Shown here piece by piece: positions 1,195 to 7,398 of a stretch of DNA of 24,809 nt. Each line of letters starts with the position of its first letter. Position 1 is the first letter of the stretch. Source of the DNA: a virus. The position numbers were made by a program, and so were the translations under genes. The stretch lies in IMG/VR virus record IMGVR_UViG_3300040801_006098, positions 1 through 24,809 of that record, one strand, 5' to 3'. The notes under the pieces were generated by a model. That model was not told where the DNA came from. It saw nothing but the letters and a program-made list of their open reading frames with translations, and searched no databases.

Positions 1195-3062
1195 TCGCCC
1201 GACTCACCGGCCCCGCCCCCGACCCGCTCGTCGCTGCCTTCGCCGCGGCGAACGATGTCGGCCCCGTCATTGCCGAGCGGCGTGTCCGTCTCATGGCCGG
1301 CCGACTCTGCAACGTCGAGCACCTCGACGACCTCACCGACGCGCAGCGCGACGCGCTGCGTCATCACATCGACCAGGCCGACGTGGCCGCTCGCCCCGAC
1401 GAGCGGCTCGCCCCGGCCCCAACCGGAGAGCCCATGCCCCCGACCGCCCCCACGAAACCACGCGCCCCGAAACGCAAGGCCAAGGCCGACGCCAAGCCGA
1501 CGATCCGACGAGCCTCCGCCCCGATGCCCGCAGCCGACTTCCCGGCCGAGCAGAAGCAGGTCCCGCTCAAGTCGATCCGGCCGAGCCCGCTGAACCCGCG
1601 GAAGCATATCGACCAGGAGGCGCTTGCCAAGCTGGGCGACTCGATGAAACTCAATGGCCAGATGCAGGAATGCGTCGTCCGGCCGATCGAGTCGAAGACG
1701 GGCAAGGCCGAGTACTACGAGATCGTCGCCGGCGAGCGTCGTTTCCAGGCGGCGCTAATGGCCCACCTTGAAACCCTCCGCTGCCGTGTGCAGGTCCTCA
1801 CCGACGCCCAGGTCGTCGAGCTGGCCGGCGTCGAGAACTACGAGCGTGAGGATCTGAACCCGATGGAGGTCGCCGGCTGGTTTCAGTCGATGATCGAGAA
1901 GGCCGGCTACACGCAGAAGTCGCTCGCCGAGCGGCTCCAGATCAGCCAGCCGCTGGTGAGCCAACGTCTCGGCCTGCTCGCGCTTTCGGAGGTCTGGCGA
2001 GACTCCATTATTACGGGCGTAATAGCGGCGACCTGGACCCGCCACCTCACCCCGTGGGCCGACTTCCCCGAGATCCTGCAGGAGGCTTGGGAGGTCTACG
2101 AAGCCGAGGGTGAGCACGGGCCCACCAACGCCGACGATTTCGGAACCTTGGTGGCCAGCGCAATCGAGAACGTCACTCGCCCTCTCATCCACGGCTATTA
2201 CGATCGGCAACGGGACGGCTTCGTTGACAATCATCTGACGAAGAAGGACCGCGGCCGCAAAGACCTTCGGATCGTGATGATGCCGGCCCGGAGCTCCTGG
2301 CAAAGCTCCGAGCAGCGTTGCCTGAACGTCGAGCTTTGGGACGAAATCAACGCCCAGCGCCTCGCGGCGAAGAAGTCACGCGAGGCCACGAAGCTCGCGA
2401 AAGAGATGGGCTTCGAAGACTCGCCCGAAAAGCCTGGGAAGGCCTCAACCGCCGAAGCGAAGTTGAAGCGGGCCCAGCGGCAGAAGCAACAAGCCAAGCG
2501 TCTCTATGAATACAAAATTCGGTGGCTCCAAAGCCAAGCCATCGGCAAGCTCGCATCGGCTTCCGATGACTTGATTCAGCGACTCGTCCTGCACTTCACT
2601 GTCCAGGATCGCGCGGGCAACCGCACTCGCCACTTTTCCAAGGTCTGCCGCGATGCCGGCGGTGGATCTCGCGGCGGGACGGCCGGTTACTGCGACATTT
2701 CCGGGTATCGATCGATCAGCAGCATCGGCAAGCGAGATCTACGCGCCATTTCGATCGACCTGTTAACCGTTTGGCTAAGCGGCGATCCGTTCGGCTGGTC
2801 GGCAGACTTCAAGCCCGCGGACATCGTCGCTCTCGCCGGCGAGCTCGATGTCGATCTCGTCCGCGACTGGCGGATGGACCGGGCCTTCCTCGAGCTGCAC
2901 ACGAAAGACGATCTCGACGCCCTGGCCAAGGAGTGGGGCAAGGATGCGGCGTCGGTCTGCAGCGAAGCGGCGAAGCGCGGCGCCAAGCTCGACGCCCTCG
3001 AAAAGCTCACCTTCCTCAAAGCCCCGAAGTCCCTCGTCCAGGCGAAGGAGCCGAAGCGCTGA
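1191..3062 (+). CDS. ParB-like DNA-binding protein (623 aa)
   Basis: ParB/RepB/Spo0J-family protein. Residues about 123-205 form the ParB N-terminal domain with the GERRFQAA box (181-188). The ENYEREDLNPME segment (215-226) matches the second conserved box, which in characterised ParBs forms part of the CTP-binding site. Residues about 240-262 (YTQKSLAERLQISQPLVSQR) are the helix-turn-helix. The first 110 residues are an unrelated Ala/Pro/Lys-rich leader. About 340 residues follow the HTH that I cannot assign, including a basic coiled-coil-like stretch (AKLKRAQRQKQQAKRLYEYK). It is about twice the length of chromosomal ParB. The ATG at 1191 is chosen for its aggaggagg ribosome-binding site and ATGA overlap. 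No parA is visible, so it may be a phage regulator or plasmid-prophage partition factor rather than a standard segregation protein. Confidence 0.85.
   Translation: MIARLTGPAPDPLVAAFAAANDVGPVIAERRVRLMAGRLCNVEHLDDLTDAQRDALRHHIDQADVAARPDERLAPAPTGEPMPPTAPTKPRAPKRKAKADAKPTIRRASAPMPAADFPAEQKQVPLKSIRPSPLNPRKHIDQEALAKLGDSMKLNGQMQECVVRPIESKTGKAEYYEIVAGERRFQAALMAHLETLRCRVQVLTDAQVVELAGVENYEREDLNPMEVAGWFQSMIEKAGYTQKSLAERLQISQPLVSQRLGLLALSEVWRDSIITGVIAATWTRHLTPWADFPEILQEAWEVYEAEGEHGPTNADDFGTLVASAIENVTRPLIHGYYDRQRDGFVDNHLTKKDRGRKDLRIVMMPARSSWQSSEQRCLNVELWDEINAQRLAAKKSREATKLAKEMGFEDSPEKPGKASTAEAKLKRAQRQKQQAKRLYEYKIRWLQSQAIGKLASASDDLIQRLVLHFTVQDRAGNRTRHFSKVCRDAGGGSRGGTAGYCDISGYRSISSIGKRDLRAISIDLLTVWLSGDPFGWSADFKPADIVALAGELDVDLVRDWRMDRAFLELHTKDDLDALAKEWGKDAASVCSEAAKRGAKLDALEKLTFLKAPKSLVQAKEPKR
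2009..2024. repeat. AT-rich inverted repeat TATTACGGGCGTAATA, copy 1
   Basis: Seven-base arms TATTACG / CGTAATA around GG. It sits inside the ParB-like gene just after the HTH, read as Ile-Ile-Thr-Gly-Val-Ile. The identical 16-mer occurs at 18419-18434 and a variant at 6545-6558. Such an AT-rich dyad stands out in the GC-rich surroundings. Confidence 0.6.
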
Positions 3063-3391
3063 TGGCCGTTGCCCGCCGCTGCCTGGGATGCCAAAACCTT
3101 TTCGAGCCGGCCCGCTCTGATGCGCGGACCTGCTCGGGCAAGTGTCGGCAGGACGTGTATCGCCGCGGCGGCGAGCAGGCGATCCGCGCGACCCTCAACC
3201 GGCCGGCCGGATGGTGGGACGACGTCCGCACCTGGCCGGCCATGATGAACCCGGCCGGCGCGACGCTCGACACGTCGTCGATCGTCATCCCCTTCGAGCC
3301 CGGGCAGCTTGTACTGACGGCGATCGACGACAAGGGAACGCTCGGCGTGCAAGTGATCGTCCTGGCTTCGCCTCGATCGGGGGTGGCGTGA
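3062..3391 (+). CDS. Small zinc-ribbon protein (109 aa)
   Basis: The start overlaps the ParB-like stop (TGATG). Near the N-terminus, CLGCQNLFEPARSDARTC followed by SGKCRQ gives C-x2-C and C-x3-C pairs about 12 residues apart. This 'CSGKCRQ-x-YRR' zinc-binding head is common in small phage and prophage proteins. The rest is a beta-rich domain (SSIVIPFEPGQLVLTAIDDK) without a recognised family. Likely a structural zinc site in a nucleic-acid or protein-binding factor; precise role unknown. It lies between the ParB-like gene and the structured region upstream of the integrase, apparently in the same transcript. Confidence 0.7.
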   Translation: MAVARRCLGCQNLFEPARSDARTCSGKCRQDVYRRGGEQAIRATLNRPAGWWDDVRTWPAMMNPAGATLDTSSIVIPFEPGQLVLTAIDDKGTLGVQVIVLASPRSGVA

Positions 3392-3705
3392 TGCTCAAAC
3401 TGTGGCATGCTTCCAAACGAGGGGGTTCCGTGGGGACGGGGACCTCTAAATCAAAAGCGGGATCGCCGCGCCTGCGTGGTGCAACGGCGCGGCGATCCCT
3501 GACCTCTGGACCGAGATTGCGCCTCGGGCCGTCGGCTGTCGCGAGTGTATCGCGGTGGCTGTGCGTGTTCTCCCGTCCCCGGCCTGGCCGGGGGCGGGGC
3601 GCATTCGGTCTGGTCCCGTGGGAAGTACTCCCGCGGTGGGACGGCGACTTGCCAAACCCGGCCGACTCTCGATCCTCACTTGAGGCACGGAGGCCGGGAA
3701 GATGA
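3391..3705 (+). CDS. Doubtful ORF over the structured pre-integrase region
   Basis: A 104-codon frame starts at ATG 3391 (overlapping the previous stop) and ends at 3705 (overlapping the integrase ATG). Coupling at both ends is the only argument for it. Against it, the product is an Arg/Gly/Ser/Pro-rich string (RPRPGRGRGAFG) with no secondary-structure pattern, codon third positions are visibly less GC-rich than in neighbouring genes, and the DNA is packed with hairpins. I favour non-coding sequence here, possibly with a short translated leader. Confidence 0.2.
   Translation: MLKLWHASKRGGSVGTGTSKSKAGSPRLRGATARRSLTSGPRLRLGPSAVASVSRWLCVFSRPRPGRGRGAFGLVPWEVLPRWDGDLPNPADSRSSLEARRPGR
3459..3698 (+). 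ncRNA. Candidate structured RNA / integrase leader
   Basis: Consecutive complementary segments, all seen directly. (1) A 14-bp perfect hairpin, 3459-3472 with 3486-3499. (2) A long stem, 3509-3526 with 3595-3610 (GACCGA/TCGGTC, AT/AT, GCGCCTCG/CGGGGCGC, with one G-U pair and small bulges), enclosing two perfect hairpins: 3540-3544 with 3550-3554, and 3577-3582 with 3588-3593. (3) A branched hairpin 3613-3642. (4) Stem 3657-3663 with 3692-3698 (CCCGGCC/GGCCGGG) with inner hairpin CCTC/GAGG at 3674-3685. The last stem covers the integrase ribosome-binding site (ggaggccgggaag). It could be a cis-regulatory leader, a trans-acting RNA, or DNA structure at an attachment or replication site. I do not recognise a known RNA family. 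Confidence 0.45.
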
Positions 3706-4751
3706 GTCAAGTGCCTTCTTACATCCCGCGGCATCTGTTCTCGCCGCTCCAGGCCCCGCCCGTCACCGTCGGCGACTACATCGACGCCTACCTGGTCGGC
3801 TGGGGCGACTGGCACGGTGCCGAGGCTGAGTACCCCGCCCGCACCGAAACCAACCGCACGACCGAGGCGTCGAACATGGCCTACGCGCTCGCCGATCTGC
3901 GGCGAACGCTGGGCGTCGAGCCCGACGGCTCGCCCCGCGCCGTCGCGGGCCTCGCGGTGGGCGAGCTGCGGCCCGGTGACCTCCGCGCGATGCAGCAGCA
4001 GCAGATCGACGCCGGCCTGGCTCGTTCGTCGATCAACGCGCGGAAGAACCGTGTGCTGCGCTGGGTGCGGTGGCTGGTTGAGTACGAGCACGCCGACGCG
4101 ACGCTCATCGCGAAGCTGGAAGTCGTCAAGGGTGTCAAGGCCTCGCGGCCCGGCGTGCGCTCGACGGCTGAAGTCGAGGACGTGCCCGACGACGTGGTCG
4201 CGGCGACGCTCAAGGCGACGCGGGACTACGAGCTGCGGCGGGCCGTCCGCGTGCAGCAGCTCGCCGGCATGCGGCCCGGCGAATTGCTGGCCATGCAGGT
4301 CCGCTGGCTGCACCCCCACCCGTCGGGGGCCTGGTCGTACCGGCCGAGCTGGACCAAGACGCAGGTGAAGCTCGGCTTCCGCCGCGAGATCCCGATCGGC
4401 CCCTTCGCCCAGGAGCAGCTCCGGGCGCAGGCGGCCACCATGGGCGAAGAGTTCGGGCTGTTCGGATCCACGGTCCCGCGGCTGGGCGACGCGACGGACC
4501 AGCGGCCGATCTGGCGGTGGAAGACGGTGGGCGGGTATTACCAGGCCGTGCGGCGGGCGGTGAAGAAAGCCGGCGTGGCGTCCTGGCACCCAAACCAACT
4601 GCGGCACTCGACGCTGACCAAGGCGATGAACTCGGCCGGCGAAGACACGGCCGCCTCGATCGGCGGGCACCTGGACCCGCGGACGACGCGCAAGCACTAC
4701 TTCCACGGCCACGCCGAAAAGGCGCGGCTCTGGGCGGAGGAGCACGGATGA
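3702..4751 (+). CDS. int: Tyrosine recombinase / phage integrase (349 aa)
   Basis: Catalyses site-specific integration and, with partners, excision of the prophage. Residues about 20-135 are the core-binding (SAM-like) domain with YIDAYL and the helix SSINARKNRVLRWVRWLVEY. The catalytic domain follows: box I LAGMRPGELLAM with Arg191, then HPNQLRHS with Arg301 and His302, GGHLDPRT with His323, and the nucleophile Tyr333 in RKHYFH. The usual H-x-x-R histidine three residues before Arg301 is Asn298, a variant I associate with planctomycete integrases. Length is normal. The ribosome-binding site lies in the stem at 3657-3698, suggesting translational control. The gene is embedded in the early operon and overlaps the next gene (ATGA). 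Confidence 0.93.
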   Translation: MSQVPSYIPRHLFSPLQAPPVTVGDYIDAYLVGWGDWHGAEAEYPARTETNRTTEASNMAYALADLRRTLGVEPDGSPRAVAGLAVGELRPGDLRAMQQQQIDAGLARSSINARKNRVLRWVRWLVEYEHADATLIAKLEVVKGVKASRPGVRSTAEVEDVPDDVVAATLKATRDYELRRAVRVQQLAGMRPGELLAMQVRWLHPHPSGAWSYRPSWTKTQVKLGFRREIPIGPFAQEQLRAQAATMGEEFGLFGSTVPRLGDATDQRPIWRWKTVGGYYQAVRRAVKKAGVASWHPNQLRHSTLTKAMNSAGEDTAASIGGHLDPRTTRKHYFHGHAEKARLWAEEHG

Positions 4752-4996
4752 TCGACAGATTCCTACTCGCCATCGATGTCCGCTTCACCTGGGAAGAGTT
4801 CCTCCGAGCGGCGGCAATCACCTGGCACATGCGGCGGCAACTGCGGCAGAAAGGATTGAGGCTGCAAGAGGGCTTCACCTGGCTGCTGATGTTCAAGCTC
4901 GTGCTCTCGGCTTCAGTGACCGTTAGAGAGCGCCGCGAACTCGCCGATCGCTACGACCCCACCGCTTCAAAGCCGACCGTGAAGAGTGACATTTAG
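4748..4996 (+). CDS. Small protein following the integrase (82 aa)
   Basis: Starts at ATG 4748, overlapping the integrase stop, so it is probably translationally coupled. The sequence MIDRFLLAIDVRFTWEEFLR is amphipathic and helical, followed by a basic helix (HMRRQLRQKGLRLQEG) and a hydrophobic stretch (FTWLLMFKLVLSASVTV) too short and interrupted to call a membrane helix firmly. No excisionase (winged-helix) signature is evident, although position and size would suit an integrase accessory factor. Its stop lies inside the inverted repeat at 4989-5013. Confidence 0.5.
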   Translation: MIDRFLLAIDVRFTWEEFLRAAAITWHMRRQLRQKGLRLQEGFTWLLMFKLVLSASVTVRERRELADRYDPTASKPTVKSDI

Positions 4997-5013
4997 CTTG
5001 CCTAGCTAAATGT
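4989..5013. repeat. 10-bp perfect inverted repeat at end of the int gene pair
   Basis: Arms ACATTTAGCT and AGCTAAATGT around a five-base spacer (TGCCT). It includes the stop codon of the 82-residue gene. It is AT-rich against the background and has no T-run after it, so it is a poor classical terminator. Candidates are a regulator binding site, part of an attachment region beside the integrase, or an RNA 3'-end hairpin. Confidence 0.6.
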
Positions 5014-5028
5014 TCAGCGCTACATCTT

Positions 5029-5044
5029 GGGGCCGCGCGGCCCC
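5029..5044. terminator. GC hairpin between 4996 and 5071 (possible weak terminator)
   Basis: The 16-base perfect palindrome GGGGCCGCGCGGCCCC can form a six-pair stem with a GCGC loop. It is followed by GTTACC rather than a T-run, so termination would be weak or Rho-assisted. Together with 4989-5013 it separates the integrase pair from the next genes. Confidence 0.35.
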
Positions 5045-5070
5045 GTTACCCCCACGAAAGGACTCGAAGC

Positions 5071-5349
5071 ATGAAAACAGAAACCACCCCGATCGATCTC
5101 GGCGACCGCGTGCGCTGCAAGGTCACCAACTTGGAAGGCATTGTCATGGGCATGACGCGGTATCTCTATGGGTGCGTCCGCGTCGGCATCCAGCCCGCGG
5201 CCTTACACCAGGGGCGGCCTGTCGAGGCATATTGGGTCGACCTTCCCCAACTCGAGCTGGTCGACCGCGGCGTCGTCGCCGTCAAACCGGCCGAGCGTGA
5301 AACCGGCGGGCCGATGCCGTCGATTCCGACCCGCAACCAGCCCGGGTGA
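5071..5349 (+). CDS. Small conserved-looking beta-barrel protein (92 aa)
   Basis: The ATG at 5071 is preceded by CACGAAAGGA (5053-5062), a strong ribosome-binding site. The pattern GDRVRCKVTNLEGIVMGMTR then YGCVRVGIQP and AYWVDLPQLELV resembles a short SH3/KOW-like barrel seen in many small phage and mobile-element proteins of unknown role ('GDrV-d-vTgf-GIa-----YlnGC-r--vqp'). That match is from memory and not verified. The C-terminal 20 residues are Pro/Thr-rich and probably disordered. Not part of the overlapping-gene chain: it has its own leader. Confidence 0.6.
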   Translation: MKTETTPIDLGDRVRCKVTNLEGIVMGMTRYLYGCVRVGIQPAALHQGRPVEAYWVDLPQLELVDRGVVAVKPAERETGGPMPSIPTRNQPG

Positions 5350-5365
5350 GACCCGCCCCGCCCGG

Positions 5366-5398
5366 TTTGCTCTCACCCCCCCGTGGGGTGAGAGCAAA
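5366..5398. terminator. 14-bp perfect hairpin after the 92-residue gene
   Basis: Arms TTTGCTCTCACCCC (5366-5379) and GGGGTGAGAGCAAA (5385-5398) around a five-base loop. A very stable intergenic stem, symmetrical and thus usable on either strand, but without a downstream T-run. It may terminate weakly, protect mRNA ends, or bind a regulator. Confidence 0.5.
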
Positions 5399-5426
5399 GA
5401 CAAGCCCATTCACGAAAGGATTCACG

Positions 5427-5642
5427 ATGAACCCAGACACCGGAGCGATCGGCCACTTTGAGAAAAAACGAGACGCGATCGCGGCCGGCTTCACCCTCGA
5501 ACTTTCGGCGGAGCAAGCCACCGAGCTGTCGCCGCCCTCCCGCAAGGAGCGTCGTCGACGGGCCCGCGAGATGAAGGTCGACGCCGCGGCGGCCAGAAAT
5601 CCCCGTCAGTACAAGCAGCGGAAGAAGAAGCGTACGAAATGA
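5427..5642 (+). CDS. Small basic protein (71 aa)
   Basis: The ATG at 5427 lies six bases after CACGAAAGGA (5411-5420), the same ribosome-binding block as the gene at 5071. The product begins MNPDTGAIGHFEKKRDAIAA, has an SPPSRKERRRRAREMK basic helix, and ends in RNPRQYKQRKKKRTK. The strongly basic C-terminal half suggests RNA or DNA binding. Similar tiny Lys/Arg-rich proteins accompany phage early genes. I do not recognise a family. Its stop is overlapped by a further micro-ORF. Confidence 0.55.
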   Translation: MNPDTGAIGHFEKKRDAIAAGFTLELSAEQATELSPPSRKERRRRAREMKVDAAAARNPRQYKQRKKKRTK

Positions 5643-5695
5643 TGATCCTCGAACACCACGACCCGATCCTCGACGACGATCGGGAGGCGTCATGA
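5639..5695 (+). CDS. Possible 18-residue micro-ORF
   Basis: ATG at 5639 overlaps the preceding TGA, and its own TGA (5693-5695) overlaps the next ATG (5692). The product MMILEHHDPILDDDREAS is too short to judge. Double coupling suggests it may be translated, if only to carry ribosomes to the next gene. No independent support. Confidence 0.25.
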   Translation: MMILEHHDPILDDDREAS

Positions 5696-6138
5696 GCACC
5701 GAAACCATCACCCATTGCCAAAACGAAGTCCTGGTCGTGACCAAATGCTGGTGCGGCGTCACGCACGGCGTGCCTCAATCTCTCTACGACCTCCAGCGGC
5801 GTCAATTCAATGAAGGAGGCCAGGTTAAATCGATCTATTGCCCGCTTGGGCATGGATGGATTCCTAGCGGAACTCCAAAGTACAAGCGGCTCGAACAGGA
5901 TCTTCAGCGCGAGCGAGCCAGCCACGACCAACAACGCGCACGGCTGCACGATCAAATCGAACAAGAGAAGAACCGCACCCGCGCCCAGAAGGCCGCGAAG
6001 ACGCGGCTCAAGAACCGTGTCGCCGCCGGCGTCTGCCCGTGCTGCAACCGCCACTTCGACAACCTTGGCCGGCACATGGCCCACCAGCACCCCGATTTCA
6101 CCGAGCGGGACGACACGTCGTCGCCCCGCGCCTCTTAA
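5692..6138 (+). CDS. Zinc-finger / coiled-coil protein (148 aa)
   Basis: The N-terminal part has KCWCGVTHGVP (Cys19, Cys21) and YCPLGHGW (Cys50, His54), giving a first likely metal site. Residues about 64-105 are a charged coiled coil (YKRLEQDLQRERASHDQQRA). The C-terminus has a C2H2-like finger VCPCCNRHFDNLGRHMAHQHP split as Cys115/Cys118 and His128/His131-133. This architecture recurs in small phage-encoded proteins; a DNA- or RNA-binding role is likely but the target is unknown. ATG 5692 is supported by the ATGA overlap and ggagg just upstream. A strong hairpin follows the stop. Confidence 0.75.
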   Translation: MSTETITHCQNEVLVVTKCWCGVTHGVPQSLYDLQRRQFNEGGQVKSIYCPLGHGWIPSGTPKYKRLEQDLQRERASHDQQRARLHDQIEQEKNRTRAQKAAKTRLKNRVAAGVCPCCNRHFDNLGRHMAHQHPDFTERDDTSSPRAS

Positions 6139-6725: not shown

Positions 6726-7025
6726 TCACCCCGCCGCGCGGGCTTTGACTTCGCGCTCGATGGCCCGGCCTGACGCGTCGCGGGCGGCTTCGAGTTCGTA
6801 GTGGGCCTGCAGATCCAGCCAGAATTCGGGCGTGGTGCCGAAGTACTTGGCCAGCCGCAGCGCGGTGTCGCCGGTGATCCCGCGCTTGCCGTTGACGATG
6901 TTGCCGACCCGGCTCTGGGGCATGCCCGTGTCCTGGGCGAGCCGGTAGTTGCTGATCCCCAGCTCGTCGAGGAACTCGACCTTCAGGATTTCGCCGGGGT
7001 GCACGGGGGGCATGAGTTTGGGCAT
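6726..7025 (-). CDS. higA: HigA-type antitoxin (99 aa)
   Basis: XRE-family helix-turn-helix antitoxin that neutralises HigB and represses its own operon. The start PPVHPGEILKVEFLDELGIS is the classic HigA/VapI opening. The HTH follows (NYRLAQDTGMPQSRVGNIVN), then the family signature TGDTALRLAKYFGTTPEFWL. The C-terminus (HYELEAARDASGRAIEREVK) is the usual helical tail. The ATG at 7025 is chosen for its homology start and the GGAG eight bases before it; the same frame stays open 41 codons further upstream but that part is Arg/Pro junk. It is downstream of higB, as in known higBA loci, and overlaps the extended toxin frame. Confidence 0.93.
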   Translation of the reverse strand: MPKLMPPVHPGEILKVEFLDELGISNYRLAQDTGMPQSRVGNIVNGKRGITGDTALRLAKYFGTTPEFWLDLQAHYELEAARDASGRAIEREVKARAAG

Positions 7026-7363
7026 GGTGGTTCTCCGGGGGCCATGGTTTGAGTTCCGGAGGTTTGAATTCCGGGGGGGGGGCAGTGGTAATCGACGATC
7101 TCGACGTCGTGGGCGTGGTGGTCTTTCCAGCGGAAGCAGACCCGCCACTGCTGGTTGATGCGGATGCTGTACTGCCCGCGGCGGTCGCCCTTGAGGGCTT
7201 CGAGCCGGTTAGCCGGCGGGAAGCGGAGGCTTTCGAGGTTGCGAGCCTTGTGCAGCAGCACCAGCTTGATCAGAGCCCGCCGCCGGATCGTCGGCGGGAA
7301 CTTCTTGACCGGCTCGCGGCGGAAGAGGCGTTCGGTCTGCTTGCAGGCGAAAGAAGCGATCAC
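6983..7363 (-). CDS. higB: HigB-type toxin with abnormal C-terminal extension
   Basis: RelE/ParE-superfamily HigB toxin (ribosome-dependent mRNA interferase), expected family PF05015. Diagnostic segments: MIASFACKQTERLFRRE at the start, RLEALKGDRRGQYSIRINQQ, WRVCFRWKD and DVEIVDYH at the normal end. The usual protein stops right after DYH (about 93 residues). Here no stop follows; the frame runs through a C10 tract (7082-7073 on the minus strand), adding about 32 unrelated residues and overlapping higA out of frame. A GTG start at 7363 matches the family N-terminus. The true product may end elsewhere if the C tract length varies or was misread. An operator and promoter lie directly upstream. 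Confidence 0.88.
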   Translation of the reverse strand: MIASFACKQTERLFRREPVKKFPPTIRRRALIKLVLLHKARNLESLRFPPANRLEALKGDRRGQYSIRINQQWRVCFRWKDHHAHDVEIVDYHCPPPGIQTSGTQTMAPGEPPCPNSCPPCTPAKS

Positions 7364-7369
7364 ACCCCA

Positions 7370-7398
7370 ATGCTAACGTATAACGTTAGCACAGTCAA
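7370..7398 (-). promoter_or_regulatory. higBA promoter with HigA operator
   Basis: A perfect inverted repeat with 9-base arms TGCTAACGT and ACGTTAGCA around ATA spans 7371-7391, eight bases before the higB start. On the minus strand, TTGACT (7398-7393) and TAGCAT (7375-7370) are 17 bases apart and fit -35/-10 boxes. The dyad fills the spacer and overlaps the -10, the expected place for HigA autorepression. TTGACT overlaps the TGA of the last late gene. Transcription would start almost at the GTG, so the mRNA may be nearly leaderless. Confidence 0.7.

Follow-up and report, generated by a model that had tools for sequence, protein, structure and literature searches.

A strongly folded, non-coding interval upstream of a phage tyrosine integrase gene as a candidate translational leader

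In the window analyzed here (the 24,809-base IMG/VR virus record IMGVR_UViG_3300040801_006098, positions 1 to 24,809), the approximately 310 bases that separate a tyrosine integrase gene from a small zinc-finger gene upstream are non-coding and strongly folded. We tentatively read this interval, at close to even probability, as a cis-acting leader that keeps integrase translation low and lies behind a terminator for leftward transcription. The neighboring genes form a rightward cluster that also contains an ORF at 4748-4996, and the structural genes (capsid, portal, terminase; identified with Pfam) run leftward. The cluster is organized as follows:

1269-3062, plus strand: ParB-like gene (ParB_N and HTH_ParB, from Pfam), at the head of the integrase cluster
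3062-3391, plus strand: small zinc-finger-like protein (CxxC...CxxxC, read from the sequence; weak PHROG hits)
3391-3701, plus strand: non-coding interval and putative integrase leader, with no codon bias in any frame; the most structured stretch of the window
3702-4751, plus strand: tyrosine integrase gene (Pfam Phage_integrase, E 1.4e-10)

The integrase has R191, the H and R of HPNQLRH, H323, and Y333. No DNA homologues of the window were found in phages or plasmids, and no relatives of the integrase were found in the phages, plasmids, and genome contigs searched. Repeated searches of IMG/VR returned one close integrase relative, which was the same contig each time (IMGVR_UViG_3300048083_000044; L002 = L011 = L014 = L101 = L111). 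Its integrase is 47% and its ParB 35% identical to those of the window, and the region upstream of its integrase gene is also largely non-coding.

The interval contains a 104-codon frame whose ends abut the neighboring genes (TGATG and ATGA, the stop of the zinc-finger gene overlapping the ATG of the frame) in a manner resembling a coupled gene. This frame was rejected as a gene, as its GC content is flat across codon positions (0.65/0.70/0.66 vs. approximately 0.67/0.47/0.83 in real genes) and its codon usage is unlike that of every real gene tested (codon score -0.47 vs. +0.05 to +0.55). The remaining frames of the interval showed no coding signal on either strand.

The folding energy of positions 3430-3704 corresponds to z = -4.6 on the plus strand and -5.3 on the minus strand, with none of 200 dinucleotide shuffles reaching values as low. 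When the whole window was scanned in 200-nt segments, 3501-3700 (z = -4.5) and 3401-3600 (z = -4.0) ranked first and second of 247, followed by a third-ranked segment at -3.9 (scan mean -0.6, sd 1.3), in line with an initial annotation, made from the sequence, according to which pairing here far exceeds that in adjacent coding DNA. The same annotation recognized no known RNA class, and this holds at Rfam thresholds: no family of Rfam 15 was found at the gathering score, searching the interval alone gave chance-level matches, and the best sub-threshold ones were miRNA models located on the hairpin. Helix coordinates were taken from the minimum-energy fold of 3441-3760, in which the mean pair probabilities of the leader helices are 0.90-0.99. 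The elements are, in order:

3441-3447, plus strand: GACCTCT, copy 1 (sequence)
3459-3499, minus strand: hairpin 1, 14 bp, intrinsic-terminator-like, followed by GCTTTTGATTT (3458-3448)
3501-3507, plus strand: GACCTCT, copy 2 (sequence)
3501-3615, plus strand: branched stem of 18 pairs (3501-3504/3612-3615, 3508-3515/3604-3611, 3518-3523/3598-3603)
3526-3570, plus strand: inner hairpin 1 of the branched stem, 19 pairs with two single-base bulges
3573-3597, plus strand: inner hairpin 2 of the branched stem, 11 bp
3617-3635, plus strand: hairpin CGTGGGA/TCCCGCG (predicted fold)
3636-3722, plus strand: closing structure around the integrase Shine-Dalgarno sequence (SD) and AUG (3636-3641/3717-3722, 3643-3645/3713-3715, 3647-3651/3708-3712, 3657-3663/3692-3698, inner 3674-3677/3682-3685)
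3689-3693, plus strand: GGAGG, presumed SD of the integrase gene, its last two bases lying inside a 7-bp stem

The heptamer repeat is where the initial annotation had placed it, the perfect 14-bp hairpin that it named is present (3459-3472/3486-3499), and additional short direct repeats occur at 3424-3443 and 3612-3648. The multi-branch stem, which had been given as about 16 pairs between 3509-3526 and 3595-3610, does exist and encloses two hairpins, but with shifted coordinates and 18 pairs; both of the enclosed hairpins, described as perfect, are present, although the one at 3526-3570 is bulged. Measured against shuffled sequences, the branched stem is more favorable on the plus strand (z -5.0, with 10 G.U pairs) than on the minus strand (z -3.3), a point in favor of the leader reading.

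Hairpin 1 looks like an intrinsic terminator for leftward transcription, separate from the remaining leader. Twelve of its 14 pairs are G-C, the minus-strand tail holds six T in eight positions, and it ranks first in strength among the U-tailed hairpins of the window, with a G+C-rich stem and a U-rich tract within 2 nt on the minus strand; its loop, at 11-13 nt, exceeds the usual length. The flanks lengthen the stem through G.U pairs on the minus strand only, and a rightward terminator was rejected, as the plus strand is without a U-tract. A similarly sized hairpin, carrying one bulge, occupies the corresponding position in the relative and is followed on the minus strand by the tail GCTTGTTTGC; its flanks are the best match to those in the window (20 of 31 positions) among 1,907 hairpins from the loci compared (mean 10.6, sd 1.95). 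In IMG/VR pattern scans for these flanks, only the known relative was convincing among the matches listed. Between the two sequences, 6 of the 14 pairs are changed on both sides with pairing kept, and when the arms are exchanged only 8 of 14 pairs form. Compensatory changes, the check suggested for each stem, were seen in hairpin 1 and not in the ribosome-binding-site stem, which is absent in the relative (last 64 nt, z 0.2), so that comparative support within the lineage of the window covers hairpin 1 only, from two sequences. The branched stem of the relative is weakly favored (z -2.2), its SD region is nonetheless mostly paired in the fold (0.20 unpaired), and the similarity of the two whole leaders is not significant, with 28 of 400 shuffles scoring as high.

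The claim that a last stem pairs the integrase ribosome-binding site was borne out (3657-3663/3692-3698), and the closed region is larger than initially described, since a longer helix (3636-3651/3708-3722) also closes the start codon. The pairs closing the SD and AUG have probabilities of 0.75-0.97, and the mean unpaired probability of integrase positions -16 to -5 is 0.19, whereas 18 genes of the window average 0.45. The SD of the gene at 5692 is just as buried (0.19), and that gene has no long leader.

According to the leader reading, the interval would be the untranslated leader of an integrase mRNA transcribed rightward as one piece, originating in the ParB/zinc-finger cluster or at an unseen promoter near 3391-3440. 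This RNA would form the branched stem, the hairpin, and the long closing stem, and integrase output would be low because the latter buries the SD and start codon. Integrase would then be made at a low rate unless the structure were opened, possibly by a protein such as the integrase itself, by a second RNA, or by a changed 5' end of the transcript, while the terminator at hairpin 1 may insulate the ParB and zinc-finger genes from leftward transcription. A riboregulator of integrase translation had been proposed initially; the non-coding nature of the interval, the closed SD and AUG, and the structured leaders of related integrases (five of them, described below, with the last stem also ending just before the integrase AUG) are consistent with it. 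Against it stand the relative without the ribosome-binding-site stem, the weak similarity of the two leaders, the lack of promoter-like sites on both strands of 3250-5500, and the equally buried SD at 5692. Because the ribosome-binding-site stem is missing from the relative, covariation in the lineage of the window does not support it, and what carries the regulatory part of the leader reading is folding energy and analogy. In temperate phages, both integration and excision depend on the amount of integrase, and most known control is exerted by proteins at promoters. If the reading is true, a leader burying the integrase start would provide protein-free prophage stabilization in a poorly studied phage group.

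The same features can be read in other ways, two of which, a trans-acting small RNA and structured DNA where the phage attaches or replicates, the initial annotation had also offered. The U-tailed hairpin could end a minus-strand small RNA of approximately 250 nt that starts near the integrase start codon, reaches the hairpin at 3459-3499, and acts in trans or as an antisense to the integrase ribosome-binding site. The hairpin and its U-tail are found on the minus strand of both the window and the relative, no other U-tailed hairpin in the window is as strong, the minus-strand fold is marked (z -5.3), and the leftward orientation of the genes just upstream in the relative (before its toxin-antitoxin promoter) makes a leftward terminator in front of that promoter reasonable there. 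Nevertheless, the absence of a promoter-like site in 3250-5500 weighs on this explanation as well, the branched stem with its 10 G.U pairs is better on the plus strand, and the terminator could act on leftward read-through of any kind, so we consider such an RNA unlikely. Structure at the DNA level, i.e., an attP with integrase-binding sites or another cruciform or recombination site, would account for the heptamer and the short direct repeats (3424-3443, 3612-3648), which could be arm sites, and the five related integrases do have a tRNA or tRNA 3' fragment, a likely att site, 120-170 nt upstream. However, no tRNA or tmRNA sequence is present in the window, which rules out an att core of that kind, and the palindrome common to the window and its relative sits downstream of the integrase gene. 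The arms of hairpin 1 differ between the two while pairing is kept, which fits structure better than a fixed sequence bound by a protein, and burial of the SD would have to be a coincidence; a DNA site is improbable in our view.

GC-rich DNA folds easily, and with a G+C content of approximately 0.70 at 3401-3700 and a relative that supports hairpin 1 only, the interval might also be an ordinary terminator accompanied by incidental folding of intergenic DNA with no regulatory role. This is hard to reconcile with the shuffling results, in which no randomized sequence folded as well and the branched stem was by itself exceptional, and we regard it as very improbable.

A better conserved leader was found upstream of five more distant integrases (approximately 28-30% identical to that of the window) on IMG/VR contigs that we take to come from planctomycete hosts, judging by integrase type. 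In each case it lies between a tRNA or tRNA fragment and the integrase gene:

L003: 2576-2716
L004: 4256-4385
L007: 1049-1170
L008: 3870-3992
L010: 94-214

These leaders are compact (approximately 120-140 nt; folding z -2.9 to -6.0) and share the three-way junction P1-A-P2-ACC-P3-GUG-P1', whose GUG-P1' strand can also pair with the bases immediately preceding the integrase AUG to form a stem around one long hairpin. After the strands were aligned by hand, with one bulged base of L007 omitted, 143 of 145 cells were paired, compared with 46-62% when strands were swapped between sequences, and at each pair position at least one sequence had both bases changed. A model made from three of the leaders recovered L010 as a fourth (E 2e-5) and missed L008, and Rfam searches of the five regions returned tRNAs only and no leader family. 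P1 and the closing stem are mutually exclusive because they use the same GUG-P1' strand, and mutually exclusive stems are the design of many translational switches. The energy folds show the closing stem, and alternation between it and P1 is a prediction; on this reading the five-integrase leader looks like an undescribed translational switch, and its better conservation makes the idea of such a control directly testable.

The window resembles these leaders in that its structure is directly upstream of an integrase of the same family and contains a long stem pairing the bases before the integrase AUG and enclosing a hairpin (3636-3663/3692-3722). The five leaders are compact, keep the junction bases A, ACC, and GUG, and have a junction strand in common with the closing stem; none of this applies to the window. 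Models R1 and R2 had no match upstream of the integrase in the window or its relative, and a descriptor of the three-way junction (P1-P2-(N)ACC-P3-N2-4-P1') had none at 3391-3704. Membership of the window in this group was rejected on these grounds; its AUG-proximal stem is an analogous feature, which counts for a similar way of working and not for membership. It seems quite unlikely that the leader in the window diverged from a broader set of RNA switches preceding this integrase family. In the five better conserved leaders, the junction and the AUG-proximal stem have one strand in common, so that either can form but not both. Leaders of such a group would keep integrase translation off in the integrated state until a signal released it, such as the binding of integrase or of a ligand, or an altered upstream RNA on excision.

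A stem-loop leader in front of an integrase gene is an already known kind of element. The integrated ICEKp1 is transcribed from a tRNA promoter, stem-loops in the 5'-UTR of its int gene lower the full-length message, and deletion of SL3 raised reporter activity by 194%; stem-loop int 5'-UTRs also occur in ICEEc1 and ICEclc (PMC13023037). The window likewise has several stem-loops directly upstream of the integrase gene, but the ICEKp1 leader follows a host tRNA and has been proposed to work by ending transcription. The window lacks a tRNA, its branched fold is longer, and its SD and AUG are buried in the predicted structure; the likeness is architectural. In KplE1, autoregulation of intS holds the integrase low by protein binding at a promoter overlapping attL (PMC2951348). 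There too an upstream region keeps integrase low, as proposed for the window, although through protein rather than RNA folding. Structured RNAs in the vicinity of integrase or phage genes have been reported as the int-alpA, Lacto-int, STAXI, and C4 RNA motifs (PMC2864571, PMC12370729). Non-matching at the Rfam gathering score sets int-alpA, STAXI, and C4 apart from the window, and Lacto-int, for which the table consulted gives no Rfam accession, lies outside this comparison.

Further features were observed around the integrase cluster. Downstream of the integrase gene, a palindrome occupies the same place in the window (4989-5013, 10 bp, ACATTTAGCTTGCCTAGCTAAATGT / TTTAGCTTGCCTAGCTAAA) and in its relative (L002 5577-5600, GCTAGCTTAGGTAGCTAGC); it is a possible attP core or ParB operator, and its half-sites resemble the KorB OB. 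An intergenic 14-bp palindrome at 5366-5398 (TTTGCTCTCACCCC...GGGGTGAGAGCAAA) belongs to the most strongly structured sites in the window and has a U-tail on neither strand. At 6726-7390 a leftward pair was recognized by eye as HigBA-like toxin-antitoxin genes, with the palindrome CTAACGTATAACGTTAG at the promoter end, and between parB and int the relative instead carries another pair, one gene BrnT-like by a weak Pfam hit and the other HTH. On the minus strand of the relative (L011 4577-4753), a 59-codon frame with a weak coding signal ends inside the terminator hairpin. The gene at 5692-6138 of the window encodes a phrog_33336 protein with no assigned function, and a 38% identical relative of it is present at 2073-2474 of L154, an otherwise unrelated 70-kb phage contig.
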